NCBI GenBank assembly: GCA_902812385.1 | Contig: CADDZD010000003.1 | Coordinates: 1 to 64,000, forward strand | DNA from: Clostridia bacterium | GTDB lineage: Bacteria; Bacillota; DSM-12270; Thermacetogeniales; Thermacetogeniaceae | DNA: 64,000 bases | Reading direction: 5' to 3' | Shown: piece after piece, positions 23,720-33,417 of the stretch | Position numbering within the stretch: position 1 is the stretch's first letter | Layout of the letters: every line of letters begins with the position of its first letter | Notes under the pieces: generated by a model | Database searches by the model: none | What the model was told of the DNA's origin: nothing | The model's input: only the letters and a program-made list of their open reading frames with translations | Made by a program: the position numbers and the translations under genes

Positions 23720-24559
23720 TTACGTATGCCCGTCCAGCAAGGCTTCGTGAGCGGCTGCCACAACACACCGGACTTCCTCGGGGGAAAGCTCTGCGGTAAA
23801 CCCGCCATTTCCTGTTGTCATCCACAAAAAAAATTCCAAATTCCCGTCTGCTCCTAATAGGGGTGAATAGGTCAACCCCTTGATATGAAAGCCTAATTCC
23901 CGGCTGGTTTTGATGATACGCTCCAGCACCTGGCAATGTACCTCAGCGTCTGTTACGATACCGCCCTTTCCCACATACTCACGCCCGGCTTCAAATTGCG
24001 GCTTTACCAGGGCTATAACCTCTCCCCCGTTATTGAGCAGTCTCCTTACAGCCGGCAGCACCTTCTCCAGGGAAATAAAGGAGAGGTCAAGGGTGATCAG
24101 ATCAAGCCGGGTACCCAATTCCTCGGGCGTCAGGTAGCGAAGATTGGTCCTTTCATACACTGCAATACGCGGGTCCTGGCGCAACTCCCAGGCAAGCTGT
24201 CCATAGCCCACGTCAACGGCATAAACCCGCCGCGCTCCCTGTTTTAGCAGACACTGGGTAAAGCCCCCGGTCGAGGCACCTGCATCAAGCGCTATCTTGT
24301 CTCTGACAGTGATACCAAATTTACGGAGGGCATCTTCCAGTTTCAGACCACCTCGACTTACATAGGGGCAGGGATTCCCTCTGACTTCAATCTCCCCATT
24401 GGGATCGACGAAAGTGCCCGGTTTTTCTATGCGCCGTCCCTGGTAAAAGACAAGCCCTGCCATAACAGCCCTCCTGGCCTGTTCCCGGCTCGAAAAATAT
24501 GCTTTATCTACCAGCAGTGTATCAATGCGAACCTTGCCACGGGAACCCAAGCTTACCAA
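23720..24559 (-). CDS. tlyA: TlyA family RNA 2'-O-methyltransferase
   Basis: A 279-residue protein with an N-terminal S4 RNA-binding domain (about 8-68) and an FtsJ-like Rossmann methyltransferase domain with the SAM loop [15 protein letters not shown] and the [17 protein letters not shown] motif. Mycobacterial TlyA methylates 16S and 23S rRNA riboses; the older hemolysin label for the family is unlikely to describe its function. TTG at 24559 overlaps the dxs stop; the TTG at 24548-24550 has better spacing to AAAGGG and is an equally likely start, three residues shorter. Gene order dxs-tlyA is conserved. Confidence 0.93.
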
Positions 24560-26415
24560 CCCTTTGCTTTAACGAAATCCACGATCCCCTGCGCATCCAA
24601 TCCGTATTGTCGGCGAAGAAGATCGGGCGCTCCATGTTCTACAAAGCAGTCGGGTATTCCAATTCTGGCAACTTCACCCCTAAATCCCCGCTCTGCTAAG
24701 AACTCCAGGACGGCGCTTCCAAAACCACCGGCCAGGACATTTTCCTCAAGGGTAAGCACCCGCCCGGTTTTCTCCGCCCATTTCAGAATCAGGTCTTCAT
24801 CCAGGGGTTTCACGAAACGGCAGTTAATGACCGCTACCGAGCAGTTATCCTTCTCCAGCTGTTCGGCTGCTTCGAGAGCGGAATAAACCAGCGGCCCCAC
24901 TGCAAAAATGGCCAGATCCTTTCCTTCCCGCAGGACCTCGCCCTGCCCGGGAGCAATAGACACGGGTCTGTACTCAAAAACGAGATTCTTCCCATTGCCC
25001 CGCGGGTAACGTATTGCCGTCGGTCTTTTATAATCAAGGGCGTTCGCCAGCATAACCGCCAGTTCGTTCTGGTCCTTCGGCACCATGACGATCATACCCG
25101 GAATGCTTCTCAAATAGGATAGATCAAACAGGCCCTGGTGTGTTTCGCCGTCTTCCCCAACAATCCCCGCCCGATCCAGGGCAAAAACAACGGGAAGCCC
25201 CTGCAGTGCAACGTCATGCACAATCTGGTCATAGGCCCGCTGCAGGAAAGTCGAATAGATGACCACCACCGGTTGGTAGCCGCTGCGGGCCAGGCCAGCG
25301 GCAAGGGTTACGGCGTGCTGTTCCGCGATCCCCACATCGAAAAAGCGTTTGGGAAATTTTCGAGCAAAGCTGCTCAACCCTGTCCCGTCGGTCATCGCCG
25401 CGGTAATCGCCACCAGGCGCGGATTTTCTTCCGCAAGTCGGCATATGCACTCCCCGAAAACCTGGGTATAAGTAGGAGCCGGACCCCTTGAGTAAGGAAC
25501 CCCGGTCTTTAAATCAAACGGACCGATGCCGTGGAATTTGTCCGGGTTCCTTTCCGCGGGAGTGTACCCCTTTCCCTTTTTGGTGTAAACGTGTACCAGG
25601 ACCGGCCCCGATAACATTTTCGCCCGCTCAAAAACCTGACGCAACAGCTTGATGTTATGCCCGTCGATTGGGCCCAGGTAGGTAAAGCCCAATTCCTCAA
25701 ATATGATTCCGGAAACAAGCAGGTACTTGATACTGTCTTTGAAGCGTTCAACCGCTTTGACCATGCGTGGCCCTATATTGGGAATGCGACGGAGGATTTC
25801 CTCAATCTCCTCTTTGCTCCTGTGGTAGAGGGGGTCTGTCCGCAACCTGCTCAGATAGCCGGCCATGGCTCCTACATTTTTGGTTATCGACATTTCGTTA
25901 TCATTAAGCACCACAATCAGCCTTGTCCCCAACTGTCCCGCATGGTTCAATGCCTCATAGGCCATTCCGCCCGTTAAGGCACCGTCACCGATAACAGCCA
26001 CCACCGAAAAATTGTCTCTGTCTAAATCCCGCGCCAGCGCCATGCCAAGGGCAGCAGATATCGATGTGCTGCTGTGTCCTGTTTCAAAACAGTCATGGAT
26101 GCTCTCTCGCAATTTTGGAAAACCGCTCAGGCCTCCATATTGTCTTAACGTGGAAAACTGTTTGCGACGCCCTGTGAGGATTTTATGAACGTAAGACTGG
26201 TGCCCGACATCCCAGATGATCTTGTCGCGAGGTGAGTTAAAAACAAGGTGAAGGGCAATGGTCAGTTCCACCACACCCAGATTAGGTGCCAGATGCCCTC
26301 CTGTTTCGGCAACAGTCTGAAGCACGTAGGCCCTGATTTCATGAGCGAGGGTTCCCAACTCTGAGAAGGAGAGCTTCCGTAAATCGGAAGGGTTTTCAAT
26401 TCGCTCTAAGATCAC
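24553..26415 (-). CDS. dxs: 1-deoxy-D-xylulose-5-phosphate synthase
   Basis: Thiamine-diphosphate enzyme that condenses pyruvate and glyceraldehyde-3-phosphate, the first step of the MEP isoprenoid pathway. The 620-residue protein has the ThDP site [20 protein letters not shown], the N-terminal histidine motif [13 protein letters not shown], and the transketolase-like pyrimidine domain with the glutamate in [17 protein letters not shown] start overlaps the oapA stop as GTGA behind AAAGGGTG. Together with ispA upstream it supplies isoprenoid precursors, and it is the gene normally found next to the OLE RNA locus. Confidence 0.97.
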
Positions 26416-26999
26416 TTTTTTTTCACCCTTTCTCCTTTTGCGGGGTGAAATATTTCGTATCCCGTGAGCCTTTCAATCCATGCTAACAACTGGCCGATTC
26501 GGAACATGATCTCCGTGGCTTCTCTGAGGGCAATCCCCTTTCCTAAAGCCTTTCCTCCCACAGACAATGCCGCCACAAAACCTGTCATGACCGTCGTCAA
26601 TAAACCCGATTCGATGCCCGGCCGGTTGGCAAGGAGGCGAAAAACTATCACCGCACCCAGTGATCCTGCAAGGGTACTGGAAATATCCCCCATCACATCA
26701 CTGCAGATCACAGCAACTTGATCGGCATTTTTGATCAACCTTACTGCCTGGCGTGCCCCCATTACCCTGTTGGCCGCCCTGGCATTCAAGGGACTCAGCT
26801 CTGCCGCAGCAGCGGCGAACCCGATCATGTCGAAAATGATCCCGATAAGAATAACCAGCAGCAAAAGGAGAAAAGCTAAGAAAAGAACGACAATTTGCCG
26901 CATCAGTATTTCTGCCAAATAGCTGAAGAGCGAGCTGAAAAAAAAGGTCAAAATGGCGTAACGCAAACCGGTGCGCAGCCATTTAGTTTGTTCCGGCAT
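26412..26999 (-). CDS. oapA: OLE RNA-associated membrane protein OapA (CNNM-like)
   Basis: A 195-residue membrane protein with hydrophobic segments at about 14-32, 36-65, 108-124 and 133-157. The [18 protein letters not shown] stretch and following [19 protein letters not shown] resemble the transmembrane domain of CNNM/CorC-type magnesium proteins, without their cytoplasmic CBS domains. In Bacillus halodurans the protein encoded directly downstream of OLE RNA and upstream of dxs (OapA) binds OLE RNA and localises it to the membrane. Here it occupies exactly that place, between the RNA and dxs, with a GTGA overlap to dxs. ATG start with GGGTGA upstream. The OapA assignment rests on position, size and membrane layout. 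Confidence 0.85.
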
Positions 27000-27059
27000 A
27001 TTTTTCAGTCACCCATAAAAAAATAACGGTTAATTAAGGTATATTAAAATTTTTAGGAG

Positions 27060-27681
27060 GTGGGAATTAAGTGGGTGGCCACCCGCCGGGTAAATATTGT
27101 GGCTTAGGTCTAGCAGGTTTTCCCAACGAGGCACCAAAACGTCGCCGTTCTGGCGGTTCCCCTTTAAGCCTGTTCTGTTTCGTTGCCGAAAACAGGGCTA
27201 GATTACCACTTAGTCCACACTTTAATCCCCCGCGGGCGCTGCGATCTGCAGACAGTCTAGGAGATTTCCTCAACGGTTCAACCGACTTCTAGCCTCTTTT
27301 GCAGGGAAGGTTTCAGACAGTCTCTCGTGGTGTCCAGGGCCCTGGAACCACGAGGCCTTTGTTGTCATCCACCAGCCCCACTCAAGGCAGGCTATCCGGC
27401 ATGCTTTACTGCATCCCGGTTCAACCCTGAGCCGTGGTCTATATCCCACGAACTAGGGCCTCCGCGGAGGAAGGGTCAACGCCTACATGCCTTTGTAGAT
27501 CGCCCTTCCCCCTTAACTCCCGGTACAAACCCCCGAATGGGCCTCGGAAGCCGGCACCGGGAACTTCATCGATATGCCCGTGACGGATTTTTAGGCCCGC
27601 CTTTGAAATCGGCTGTCCCGACTAGAATACTGCACCACCCACCATTAATTCACTTCAGCCCGGTAATGTCCGGGTATTGAT
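27060..27681 (-). ncRNA. ole: OLE RNA (ornate large extremophilic RNA)
   Basis: A roughly 610-nt stretch without a plausible gene between ispA and oapA-dxs, the position where OLE RNA occurs in extremophilic and anaerobic Firmicutes. A promoter at 27687-27715 predicts a 5' end near 27680. Both ends pair: RNA segments at 27635-27651 and 27064-27078 form a 15-bp closing helix (8 bp GTGGGTGG with CCACCCAC, then 7 bp GAATTAA with TTAATTC after a 2-nt bulge). Inside are strong hairpins, notably 27324-27354 (about 15 bp), 27168-27196 and the palindrome at 27459-27470. OLE RNA forms a membrane ribonucleoprotein with OapA linked to stress and magnesium tolerance. Identity comes from location, size and pairing; I could not run a covariance model. 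Confidence 0.88.
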
Positions 27682-27686
27682 GTAAC

Positions 27687-27715
27687 ATTATAACATAACT
27701 TATATTTACAAACAA
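27687..27715 (-). promoter_or_regulatory. SigA-type promoter of the OLE RNA
   Basis: On the minus strand TATAAT (27687-27692) lies 17 bases after TTGTTT (27710-27715), just past the ispA stop and 6-7 bases before the expected OLE 5' end. It would allow the RNA to be made independently of the upstream xseA-xseB-ispA transcript. Confidence 0.7.
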
Positions 27716-27728
27716 ATTTTCGTATTGT

Positions 27729-28616
27729 TCAGGATTTCCGGTGCAGTAAGTAGCGTACCGTTTCCCTTAAAAACTCCGCACGCGATCCGAATATTTCGAG
27801 ACTATGCAAAGCCTTGTTCACTTGCTCGGCGGCTAAGCTGCGTGCCTGTTCTATTCCAAAGACCGCCGGGTAGGTAGCCTTCTTTTTGACAAGGTCGCTT
27901 TTTACAGGCTTTCCCAGCTCCCGTTCGTCACCAGTAATGTCCAATATGTCATCGGTGATCTGAAAGGCTAAGCCAAAAGCAGCGGCGTAGTCCGTTAATG
28001 CCTGCAACTGGCGCGCATCTGCCCCCGCCAGCAGAGCACCTGAGCGCACCGCTGCGCGAAACAGAGCCCCGGTCTTGTGTTCGTGTATGTAAGCAAGGGT
28101 ATCGGACACCACCTGAATCCCCTCAGACTCGAGGTCCACAACCTGCCCCCCGATCAGCCCATCGGTTCCCGCGGCCCTGCTCACCTCTTCGACGATCTTT
28201 ACAATCAGCCCGGCGTCAAAACCCTCTTTTTTCAGGTCACTCAAAGTCTGAAAGGCCAGAGTCAGCAATGCGTCACCGGCGATAATCGCCACAGCTTCAC
28301 CGAATACTCTGTGGCATGTGGGTTTACCCCGGCGGTAATCATCATCGTCCATTGCCGGCAGGTCATCGTGAATCAGAGAGTAGGTATGAATCATTTCCAG
28401 TGACGCCGCTACCGGAAGAACCCGCTTTGGCTCCATATTTAGCAACTCGGCAACAGCCAGGACAAGCGCCCCTCGCAAACGCTTCCCACCCGCGAAAAGG
28501 CTGTACCTCATGGCCTCGTGGATTTTAGGCGGGTACTGGGAGGCCGGAGGGAGATAACGGTCTAAAGCGGCGTTGATCATGGCTGCTTTTTGAGCCAGTT
28601 CCTTTTCCCAGTTCAC
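27729..28616 (-). CDS. ispA: Farnesyl/geranylgeranyl diphosphate synthase
   Basis: Prenyl transferase that extends dimethylallyl diphosphate with isopentenyl diphosphate. The 295-residue protein has both aspartate-rich motifs: DDLPAMDDDDYRRGKPTCH (first) and ITDDILDITGD (second). The two-residue spacing DDxxxxD in the first motif is the bacterial farnesyl diphosphate synthase type. GTG start overlapping xseB as GTGA, with GGGGAGG upstream. It precedes OLE RNA and dxs. Confidence 0.95.
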   Translation of the reverse strand: MNWEKELAQKAAMINAALDRYLPPASQYPPKIHEAMRYSLFAGGKRLRGALVLAVAELLNMEPKRVLPVAASLEMIHTYSLIHDDLPAMDDDDYRRGKPTCHRVFGEAVAIIAGDALLTLAFQTLSDLKKEGFDAGLIVKIVEEVSRAAGTDGLIGGQVVDLESEGIQVVSDTLAYIHEHKTGALFRAAVRSGALLAGADARQLQALTDYAAAFGLAFQITDDILDITGDERELGKPVKSDLVKKKATYPAVFGIEQARSLAAEQVNKALHSLEIFGSRAEFLRETVRYLLHRKS

Positions 28617-28855: not shown

Positions 28856-30068
28856 GCTGGTCCTCCTTTATTTCTTTAACCAGGCAATGCATGCTTCCGT
28901 CCCCTAAAATCACATCAACCAGTTCCCCTACACCGGTCTCTCGAATCCCCTTGATGATATTACCGGTAGAATGGTTGCGGCAAATACTGTAACCCCGTTT
29001 TAAGATTGCAAGAGGACTAAGGGCATCCAACTTACCCGCGATCAGTTCGGTTTTCGCCCTGGCATTCATGGTTATTGCCCGCGTTCTATCAAGCAAACGC
29101 CGGTTTAGAAAACCCACTTCCTGCTTATGGAGCAACAGGCGACTTTGAACAGAACGCGGCAGGCTTCGACCGGCAATTGTCTTGAGCTTTTCCCGTTTTT
29201 CCTTGAGACCCCGGTTAACAGCCTGCATCAAACGGCCCTGAAGGTTGAATACTCGCCGTTCCAGTTCCCGGCGGTCCGGCACGACAATTTCGGCAGCAGC
29301 AGAAGGTGTCGGCGCCCTTAAATCCGCCACAAGATCCGCGATGGAGTAATCCGTTTCATGCCCCACAGCGCTCACAACGGGGATATGCATACGAAAGATC
29401 GCCCGGGCAACTTCTTCCGTGTTAAACGCCCAAAGTTCTTCGAACGATCCCCCACCCCGGCCGACGATCACCACATCGATGTCGTCACGCCTGTCGAGCG
29501 CCGCGAGAGCTGCCTGAATCTCCCCTGGCGCCTGCTCCCCCTGGACGGCGGCAGGAGCCAAAACAATCGGCATCTGGGGGAAACGCCGTCTGATCACAGT
29601 GACAATATCGTGCCATGCCGCCCCGTTCGGAGATGTGACAACCCCCACCTTGCGCGGCAAAAAAGGGATCGGTTTTTTACGCTCTACGGCAAAGAGCCCT
29701 TCCGCCTCCAGCCTGTCTTTCAGCAGGCAGTAGGCCAGATAAAGGGCTCCCATACCATCCGGCTCTAACTCCTCCACATATAGCTGGTAGCTTCCGTCTC
29801 TCTCATAGAGGCTAATGTACCCGCGCACCAGGACATTCATCCCGTTTGCAGGTAAAAAATCCAGCAGGCAGGCTCGGGAACGGAACATGACACACCGCAG
29901 GCTGCTTGAATCATCCTTTAGGGTAAAGTATATATGTCCAGAGGTATGGCGCTTAAAATTAGAAATTTCGCCGCGAATCCAGAGGTCGGAGAGCAGTGAG
30001 TCAGATTCCAGGAGATTCCGGATATAACCGGTGATCTCCCCTACCCGGTAGATCCTGCGCAGCACCAC
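28848..30068 (-). CDS. xseA: Exodeoxyribonuclease VII large subunit
   Basis: Catalytic subunit of exonuclease VII. The 406-residue protein has an N-terminal OB-fold (about 5-100, with the WIRGEISNFKRHTSGHIYFTL pattern read in part) and a catalytic domain with VGVVTSPNGAAWHDI and the conserved VGRGGGSFEELWAFN and SAVGHETDYSIADLVADLRAPTPSAA elements, in part. GTG GTG start shares one base with the folD1 stop. A coiled-coil region at about 270-350 would hold the XseB subunits. Confidence 0.95.
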   Translation of the reverse strand: MVLRRIYRVGEITGYIRNLLESDSLLSDLWIRGEISNFKRHTSGHIYFTLKDDSSSLRCVMFRSRACLLDFLPANGMNVLVRGYISLYERDGSYQLYVEELEPDGMGALYLAYCLLKDRLEAEGLFAVERKKPIPFLPRKVGVVTSPNGAAWHDIVTVIRRRFPQMPIVLAPAAVQGEQAPGEIQAALAALDRRDDIDVVIVGRGGGSFEELWAFNTEEVARAIFRMHIPVVSAVGHETDYSIADLVADLRAPTPSAAAEIVVPDRRELERRVFNLQGRLMQAVNRGLKEKREKLKTIAGRSLPRSVQSRLLLHKQEVGFLNRRLLDRTRAITMNARAKTELIAGKLDALSPLAILKRGYSICRNHSTGNIIKGIRETGVGELVDVILGDGSMHCLVKEIKEDQHG

Positions 30069-30925
30069 TAGCAGGCCCCGGCCTTTTGTTTAGCGGCCAG
30101 CACCAGGTTATAAATCAGCATGATTATCCGCATCGGTCCGACACCGCCGGGAACAGGTGTGATGTAGCCCGCCACCTGGGCGGCACTGTCGTAATCAACG
30201 TCACCGATCGATTTGCCGTCCACAAAATTGGAACCGGTGTCGATGACTATCGCTCCTGGCTTGATCATATCGCCGGTAATCGCCCTCGGCCTGCCCACCT
30301 CGGTAACAATGATATCCGCTTGCTTTGTATACGGAACGAAATCTGAATCGGGGTGTACCAGGGTAACCGCGCATCCTTTTTCAAACAGCAGAACGGTCAC
30401 GGGTTTGCCGATTTCGATTGACCACCCCACCACTACGGCGTGCTTACCCTTAAAATCGATACCGAGGTTCTCAAGTATTCTTATACAGGCATATGCTGTA
30501 ACACCCAGGTAGCACTTGTCCCCGATCACCATGTTTCCGATGTTCACAGGATGGAAGGCATCCACGTCCTTTTCCGGCAATATGGCGTTCATCACCTGCT
30601 TTTCATACTGGTGCAGATGATGTGGCAGGGGAAGCTGAACCAGGATGCCATGCACCTTATCATCCCGGTTCAGTTTATCCACCAAAGCCATCAACTGATC
30701 GATAGTGGTGTCTTCCGGCAGGTGGTGAACCTCGGCAAAGCCTCCCACAGCTTCGCAGTTTTTGGCCTTGCTCCTCACATAAAGGGCGGAATCCTCGGCG
30801 TCCCCCACCAGAATCAGGGCCATGTGCGGTGTTACACCCTTTGCCTTCAGCTCTTCTACCTCTTTAATCAACTGCTGTTTAATCTCCTCGGCCATCGCCT
30901 TACCGTCAATGCGAACCGCTGCCAT
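30068..30925 (-). CDS. folD: FolD-like methylene-THF dehydrogenase/cyclohydrolase, paralogue 1
   Basis: A 285-residue FolD family protein. FolD oxidises methylene-THF to methenyl-THF and hydrolyses it to formyl-THF. The folate site is standard: Tyr49 and Lys53 (YVRSK), GILVQLPLP, and KDVDAFHP. The nucleotide-binding loop is unusual: GWSIEIGKP instead of GRSxIVGKP, so the Arg that contacts NADP is Trp, and GGVGPMR replaces GGVGPMT. I chose ATG 30923-30925 (AAGGAGG upstream); the open frame to 31126 is a spurious extension. It lies 98 bases after a second folD with complementary changes. Confidence 0.9.
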   Translation of the reverse strand: MAAVRIDGKAMAEEIKQQLIKEVEELKAKGVTPHMALILVGDAEDSALYVRSKAKNCEAVGGFAEVHHLPEDTTIDQLMALVDKLNRDDKVHGILVQLPLPHHLHQYEKQVMNAILPEKDVDAFHPVNIGNMVIGDKCYLGVTAYACIRILENLGIDFKGKHAVVVGWSIEIGKPVTVLLFEKGCAVTLVHPDSDFVPYTKQADIIVTEVGRPRAITGDMIKPGAIVIDTGSNFVDGKSIGDVDYDSAAQVAGYITPVPGGVGPMRIIMLIYNLVLAAKQKAGAC

Positions 30926-30971
30926 ACCATACAACCTCCTTGTTCGTGTATAAAAATCTCGGATAAGGAAA

Positions 30972-31001
30972 GAGAACTGGACCCTCCCGCGTCCAGTTCT
31001 C
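30972..31001 (-). other. Perfect 11-bp hairpin between the two folD genes
   Basis: On the minus strand GAGAACTGGAC (30991-31001) pairs with GTCCAGTTCTC (30972-30982) around an 8-base loop, followed by TTTCCTTATCC. It could be a partial terminator or an mRNA-stability or processing element that sets different levels of the two FolD proteins. The T-tract is too broken for a confident terminator call. Confidence 0.6.
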
Positions 31002-31023
31002 CGGTCAGACACAAGTGCGCTTT

Positions 31024-31893
31024 CTAACCTCTTTTTTCCAACTGCCACTTGGCAGCTTCCACGGTATTCTTCATCAAGATAGCTGTTGTTGCAGTTCCTG
31101 CGCCGCCCGGGACAGGGGTAATCCACGAAGCTTTTTCTTTTGCCACCTCGAACTCCACGTCGCCAACGATCTTCCCGTCTTTTGTGGGATTGATCCCGAT
31201 ATCGACAACAATGGCGCCCTCTTTAATCCAATCTCCCTTGATGAGTTCAGGCACACCCACTGCAACCACTAAAATTTCGGCCCTTCTGACGTGTTGTTCC
31301 GTTAATCCTCTCTTACCGGTTGCAATATGACAGATAGTTGTAGTGCCAAAGCTGTTCAGGAGAAGCAGCGCAGCCGGTTTCCCGACGATGTCGCTGTGCC
31401 CGACCACAACAACCTCTTTACCGTAAATATCGACACCTGTCGATTTAATCAATTCGAAAGCACCAAGGGCGGTACACGGCACCAATCGGGGTTTCCCGAA
31501 GGTAACCAGGCCCATATTTGTTGGAGTGACGCCCTCTACATCCTTCTCGTAGGCAATGCTCCACTGACAAACCTTACCGTCGATCTGTGGTGGAACAGGC
31601 ATCTGAAGGATGATGCCGGAAACGTTCGGGTCGGCATTAAGACCTGCAATATGTTTCAGGAGTTGCTCCTGTGTCGTATCTTCCGGAAGTTCCTGAAGTT
31701 CGTATTTGATACCGCATTTCTCCGCATTCTTCGCCTGGGCATTTGTATAAACCCGTGAGGCATCGTTCTTCCCTACCTGGATGGCCACCAGGCTCGGATA
31801 AACACCTTTAGACTTTAATTCCTCAACATCCTTGACGACCTCTTCCCGAATCTTCTCTGCAAGAGGTTTCCCCAACAATAGTTGAGCCGCCAT
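31024..31893 (-). CDS. FolD-like methylene-THF dehydrogenase/cyclohydrolase, paralogue 2 (catalytic Lys replaced)
   Basis: A 289-residue FolD family protein upstream of folD1. The alignment with folD1 is gap-free at the active site: Tyr49 is kept but the cyclohydrolase lysine at 53 is Gln (YTNAQAK), and KDVDG is KDVEG. The Rossmann part has GHSDIVGKP, closer to the normal GRSxIVGKP, but the end PGGAGTAT differs from PGGVGPMT. Loss of the lysine is known to remove cyclohydrolase activity in other FolD enzymes, so a dehydrogenase-only role is a reasonable inference. ATG start with GGGAGG. Confidence 0.88.
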   Translation of the reverse strand: MAAQLLLGKPLAEKIREEVVKDVEELKSKGVYPSLVAIQVGKNDASRVYTNAQAKNAEKCGIKYELQELPEDTTQEQLLKHIAGLNADPNVSGIILQMPVPPQIDGKVCQWSIAYEKDVEGVTPTNMGLVTFGKPRLVPCTALGAFELIKSTGVDIYGKEVVVVGHSDIVGKPAALLLLNSFGTTTICHIATGKRGLTEQHVRRAEILVVAVGVPELIKGDWIKEGAIVVDIGINPTKDGKIVGDVEFEVAKEKASWITPVPGGAGTATTAILMKNTVEAAKWQLEKRG

Positions 31894-32871: not shown

Positions 32872-33417
32872 TCATTCAACACGAGCGCGGGGCTCTATAG
32901 AAACGCTGTCGACGCGTACACCTACCTGGAGGACACGCACCCCTGCCTTTTCCTCCAGGTACTCCTGGACGATCTGCTGGATCTCCTGGGATATGGACGG
33001 TATATGAGCCTCCGGATTTACATTCAGGTGAAGGGATATTCCCAGGCCATCGCGGTCACAGCGCAAAACCGGTTTAACTTCACGGACATCTCTCACCTGA
33101 CGGGCAGCGCGGCGAATCAGGTTTTCAAGTGCGGATGCCGCAATCTCAACCCTGCCCAGACCCGTTTCCTGGATGGTTATTTCATGTTCCCGGCTCCTGC
33201 TGAATGCTGTAGATAAAAGCTGTAAAGACATAATAAGTAAAAATACACAGGTGACTATCGCACCCCAGCGGCTTGCGGGATCCACCTTAAAAGCCGACAT
33301 AATATTGGTAGGAAATGTCCATCCCAGCAAGAGAGCAATGGCTACACCGGAAGAAACAAAAACAATTAAGGAAAAAAACACAAGGAGTACCCGGTATGGC
33401 AGATGCGTGGATCTCAT
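32872..33417 (-). CDS. amaP: Alkaline shock response membrane anchor protein AmaP
   Basis: A 181-residue protein with two N-terminal membrane helices (about 8-30 and 52-72) and a soluble domain (about 80-175) with the RRAARQVRDVREVKP segment. In Staphylococcus AmaP anchors Asp23 to the membrane. ATG start overlaps the asp23 stop as ATGA, so the anchor and its partner are translationally coupled. Confidence 0.88.
   Translation of the reverse strand: MRSTHLPYRVLLVFFSLIVFVSSGVAIALLLGWTFPTNIMSAFKVDPASRWGAIVTCVFLLIMSLQLLSTAFSRSREHEITIQETGLGRVEIAASALENLIRRAARQVRDVREVKPVLRCDRDGLGISLHLNVNPEAHIPSISQEIQQIVQEYLEEKAGVRVLQVGVRVDSVSIEPRARVE

Follow-up and report, generated by a model that had tools for sequence, protein, structure and literature searches.

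A full-length OLE RNA gene in a clostridial draft genome, with its closing helix, promoter and gene context

OLE RNA and its gene context

Among the bacterial RNAs that lack a known biochemical function, OLE is one of the largest, and thousands of genomes carry it. The experimental reference is the OLE RNA of Halalkalibacterium halodurans, which is reported to be about 620–630 nt long and whose partners are OapA, OapB, OapC and bS21. In this species ole has its own promoter in addition to being part of an operon (PMC9723947). The published OLE model names a helix P1, located in domain 2 (PMC12265935).

A sequence-only reading of the 64,000-nt stretch analysed here (the window) had proposed an OLE RNA between ispA and the oapA-dxs pair, in a stretch without a plausible gene. 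A covariance search (cmscan) revealed a full-length match to the Rfam OLE family RF01071 on the minus strand (model positions 1–616 of 616, 500.9 bits, E = 5.6e-144), exceeding the gathering score of 50 bits tenfold. Together with the published gene context, this match bears out the naming. It was the sole Rfam match at the gathering threshold within the window, and OLE is present in one copy in the genome. The gap from the end of ispA (27729) to the start of oapA (26999) holds only three small ORFs of 68, 73 and 117 aa, all overlapping OLE in differing frames and on both strands, and none of the ORFs listed in the gap is gene-like. The stretch is an ordinary full-length member of the already known OLE family. 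Coordinates of the features are given in Table 1.

The oapA gene lies directly downstream of OLE, and its orthologues also adjoin OLE in loci L032–L036. The encoded protein has a CNNM transmembrane match of 25.4 bits, below the cut-off, which fits the published relation between OapA and MpfA (PMC11332333). Comparison with the conserved dimerisation loops of OLE (PMC12286853) showed that the alignment of the window's RNA contains the A-rich P4 loop CUAAAAAU and the palindromic P9 loop GGGCCC, which includes GGCC.

Genes for the other partners were found elsewhere in the genome. The OapB orthologue is encoded between map and infA and matches PDB entry 7k9b, "OLE-associated protein B" (E = 3e-13); an intact OapC/YbxF orthologue of 80 aa is encoded between rpoC and rpsL, and bS21 is also encoded. 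No MpfA-like CNNM protein, and none of the CNNM type besides OapA, was found in the draft genome, which comprises 172 contigs and is 92% complete, so that the absence of MpfA is not certain. OapA as the sole CNNM protein fits the published anticorrelation of MpfA with OLE, a statistical tendency (PMC11332333). Judging from gene content, the known OLE RNP looks complete, with the essential partners described so far (OapA, OapB, OapC and bS21) all present and the expected competitor MpfA apparently absent.

The window's OLE shares with RF01071 the full-length sequence and structure, the terminal P1, the own promoter, the directly downstream oapA, and the dxs/ispA/xse/fol/nusB gene context. It differs in a leader of about 27 nt that precedes P1 and contains a small genus-specific hairpin, a shorter loop in the P7/P8 region of the RF01071 alignment, an extra outer 7-bp P1 extension of uncertain value, and the lack of a terminator before oapA. 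With H. halodurans it has in common the own promoter, the embedding in an operon, a similar length and the same four partners, whereas the organism belongs to a different class of Bacillota and is known from a draft genome alone.

An OLE match was found in 149 of 200 related genomes, and about 137 OLE loci from related genomes made up the comparison sample. The nearest relatives, with OapA identities of 97% and 95%, are MAGs of unclassified Clostridia that carry the labels Syntrophomonadaceae and Clostridia bacterium. The rarity implied by the sequence-only reading did not hold, given this frequency and the fact that an own promoter and P1 had already been published. Neither the promoter nor the closing helix is special to the window; both are common to most OLE genes. 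Taken alone, this copy adds little. The observation of that reading was confirmed and its interpretation supported; its importance was overstated.

Two other features of the neighbourhood were recorded. Two adjacent folD-like genes (methylenetetrahydrofolate dehydrogenase/cyclohydrolase) occupy window positions 30068–31126 and 31024–31893 on the minus strand with overlapping ends, and could be tandem duplicates or a pair of specialised halves. An amaP-like gene for an alkaline-shock membrane anchor (32872–33417, minus strand) is located beside nusB in the same cluster, a stress-related neighbour in keeping with the OLE gene context.

Table 1. Features of the OLE locus, in window coordinates
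Feature	Position	Strand	Basis
OLE RNA	27059..27654	-	cmscan RF01071, model 1-616
oapA (OLE-associated membrane protein A, 195 aa)	26412..26999	-	adjoins OLE; weak CNNM match
dxs	24553..26415	-	Pfam DXP_synthase_N, 417 bits
ispA (polyprenyl synthetase), upstream gene	27729..28616	-	Pfam PF00348, 216 bits
P1 5' strand, inner 8 bp	27635..27642	-	pairs with 27071-27078; covariation, 100 loci
P1 3' strand, inner 8 bp	27071..27078	-	pairs with 27635-27642; covariation, 100 loci
P1 outer 7-bp extension, 5' strand	27645..27651	-	pairs with 27064-27070; sequence only; one mismatch in L038
P1 outer 7-bp extension, 3' strand	27064..27070	-	pairs with 27645-27651; sequence only
-35 hexamer TTGTTT	27710..27715	-	sequence; kept in sister genera
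-10 hexamer TATAAT, TG one base upstream (extended -10)	27687..27692	-	sequence; conservation
5' leader hairpin CCCGG-ACAUUA-CCGGG	27659..27674	-	between predicted start and P1; congeners

The closing helix P1

The terminal segments had been described as a closing helix of 8 bp plus 7 bp around a 2-nt bulge, and this helix was found base for base, with a GU bulge at 27644–27643 and arms about 556 nt apart. It is included in the minimum free-energy fold of 27682–27059 (z = -8.2 against 20 shuffles). For analysis of covariation, both ends were anchored in 100 non-duplicate loci in one fixed register. In these loci 84% of the P1 cells were paired, versus 64% in shuffles and 35%–58% in slid registers. 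Two-sided changes numbered 346, whereas shuffles averaged 122 and never exceeded 161, and slid registers gave 140 or fewer. These counts refer to sequences rather than independent events, but dozens of families are represented among the loci. The core GTGG/CCAC also varies with compensation, examples being AGGTT/AACCT in L067 and CTGAT/ATCAG in L024. The length of P1 is mostly 8–13 bp across the loci.

Of the pairing predicted earlier between the two ends, covariation supported the inner 8 bp, which make up the terminal P1 of the window, and gave no support for the outer 7 bp. The outer extension contains an A.C mismatch in one of the two congeners (L038) and was not counted as a conserved element. 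From its name and position, we infer that the helix corresponds to the published P1. In RF01071 the P1 columns are left unpaired, and this strongly covarying helix could be added to the Rfam model.

The promoter and the 5' end

The promoter TTGTTT-17-TATAAT lies exactly where the sequence-only reading had placed it; in addition, it carries the TG of an extended -10 and is conserved across loci. The -35 hexamer matches the consensus at 3 of 6 positions, and because of this weakness a simple promoter/terminator scan of the window, which found nothing specific, did not list it. Of 96 loci, 75 have an exact TATAAT 8–70 nt before P1; dinucleotide shuffles gave 7.0 on average and no more than 16, and four control stretches further upstream contained it in 0–4 of 95. 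TG precedes the hexamer by one base in 63 of these 75 loci. In held-out loci the exact hexamer was present before P1 in 26 of 37. In the full set of 102 loci that carry an exact -10, T at -23 is kept in 97, T at -22 in 82 and G at -21 in 74, and the preferred spacing is 17. In the sister genera (L014, L042, L047, L045 and L031), TTGTTT or TTGTTC is found at a spacing of 16–17 nt, although spacer and leader diverge.

Since an own promoter had been published for ole of H. halodurans (PMC9723947), the data on the window and the family extend a known fact. A promoter described for one species is kept in most sampled loci and locates the 5' end family-wide. No terminator that would mark the 3' end was found in the window. 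Transcription would start at about 27681, and the predicted RNA from this position to the end of P1 is about 618 nt long, not far from the 630 nt reported for H. halodurans.

In the congeners L037 and L038 alike, G-C replaces the outer C-G pair of the leader hairpin. Similar hairpins were observed in L014 and L039, and other family members are without one; this restriction to a few members suggests, weakly, that the hairpin probably serves as local protection of the 5' end.

Formation of the transcript and the region before oapA

The best explanation overall, and one that we consider nearly certain, is a full-length OLE RNA gene whose RNA has its ends brought together by P1 and whose partners are encoded in the genome. 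P1 would close domain 2 and fix the ends of the RNA. By analogy with H. halodurans and clostridial OLE work, the RNA would be transcribed both from its own extended -10 promoter, some 40 nt ahead of P1, and through read-through that starts in the isoprenoid/xse cluster. It could dimerise via the P4, P5/P6 and P9 loops, be anchored to the membrane through OapA, and take part in adaptation to stress (alcohol, cold, Mg2+, carbon source); a function in this organism is thus ascribed from that in other species. No terminator was found between OLE and oapA in the window by the promoter/terminator scan, so an ole-oapA transcript is probably processed to give the 3' end.

Processing could also account for the whole RNA, if OLE were cut from a polycistronic ispA-dxs transcript alone and the TATAAT were incidental. 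The cluster of H. halodurans is indeed transcribed as one polycistronic RNA (PMC12265935), and the poor -35 missed by the scan points the same way. However, exact TATAAT with TG is kept in most OLE loci studied here and is rare in the control stretches, and the TTGTTT-16/17-TATAAT arrangement persists in sister genera despite the divergence around it, making this origin improbable.

Even less probable is that the stretch belongs to the oapA mRNA as a structured 5' untranslated region and acts as a cis-regulator such as a riboswitch rather than as a free-standing RNA. Its position directly upstream of oapA, with no intervening terminator in this genome, would suit such a role. On the contrary, the match covers the full length of OLE, an RNA that is stable, abundant and trans-acting in H. 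halodurans (PMC9723947), P1 pairs both ends into a closed unit, and a terminator-like hairpin separates OLE from oapA in 24 of 137 relatives, versus 2.2 in shuffled sequences. The chance that the region is coding is negligible: the three overlapping ORFs could be cited in its favour, but they are scattered over strands and frames, and the 500.9-bit match to a noncoding family over the full length refutes it.

For the full-length OLE gene, a broader generalisation may be offered, tentatively and with more doubt than confidence: across Bacillota, ole might be an autonomous transcription unit within an operon, with a conserved extended -10 directly before P1 and lineage-specific 3' signals that would fix where the RNA ends and restrict read-through into oapA. 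The candidate 3' signals are a UACAUA box (19 families), an intrinsic terminator (others) and a GGUUGG/CCAACC hairpin (sister genera). In the window's genus the promoter is present and all three 3' signals are absent.

In L013, L015, L028, L058, L088, L104, L116, L137 and L146, which belong to several families, OLE is followed by a convincing intrinsic terminator ahead of oapA and would thus be transcribed as a unit of its own. The sequence TACATA (UACAUA in RNA) occurs 3–25 nt past the 3' strand of P1 in L002, L012, L019, L021, L025, L112, L118, L131 and others, and is absent in the window. Within the first 30 nt past P1 it was found in 18 of 100 loci (shuffle mean 0.84, maximum 4) and, among held-out loci, in 12 of 37 (shuffle mean 0.24, maximum 3). 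This motif could mark the 3' end or direct processing; no mention of it together with OLE was found in the literature searched.

The sister genera keep a hairpin, GGUUGGAGG..AGGU..ACCUUACCCCAACCUAUUU, between OLE and oapA, which is missing from the window's own genus; Rfam scans of two loci, L014 and L031, gave no match for it. It was observed in L004, L006, L009, L014, L031, L042, L043, L045, L047, L048 and L051, and L040 has the same hairpin with a rebuilt inner stem. Possibly, it acts as an attenuator or regulator of oapA. Both the UACAUA motif and this hairpin may be new observations.
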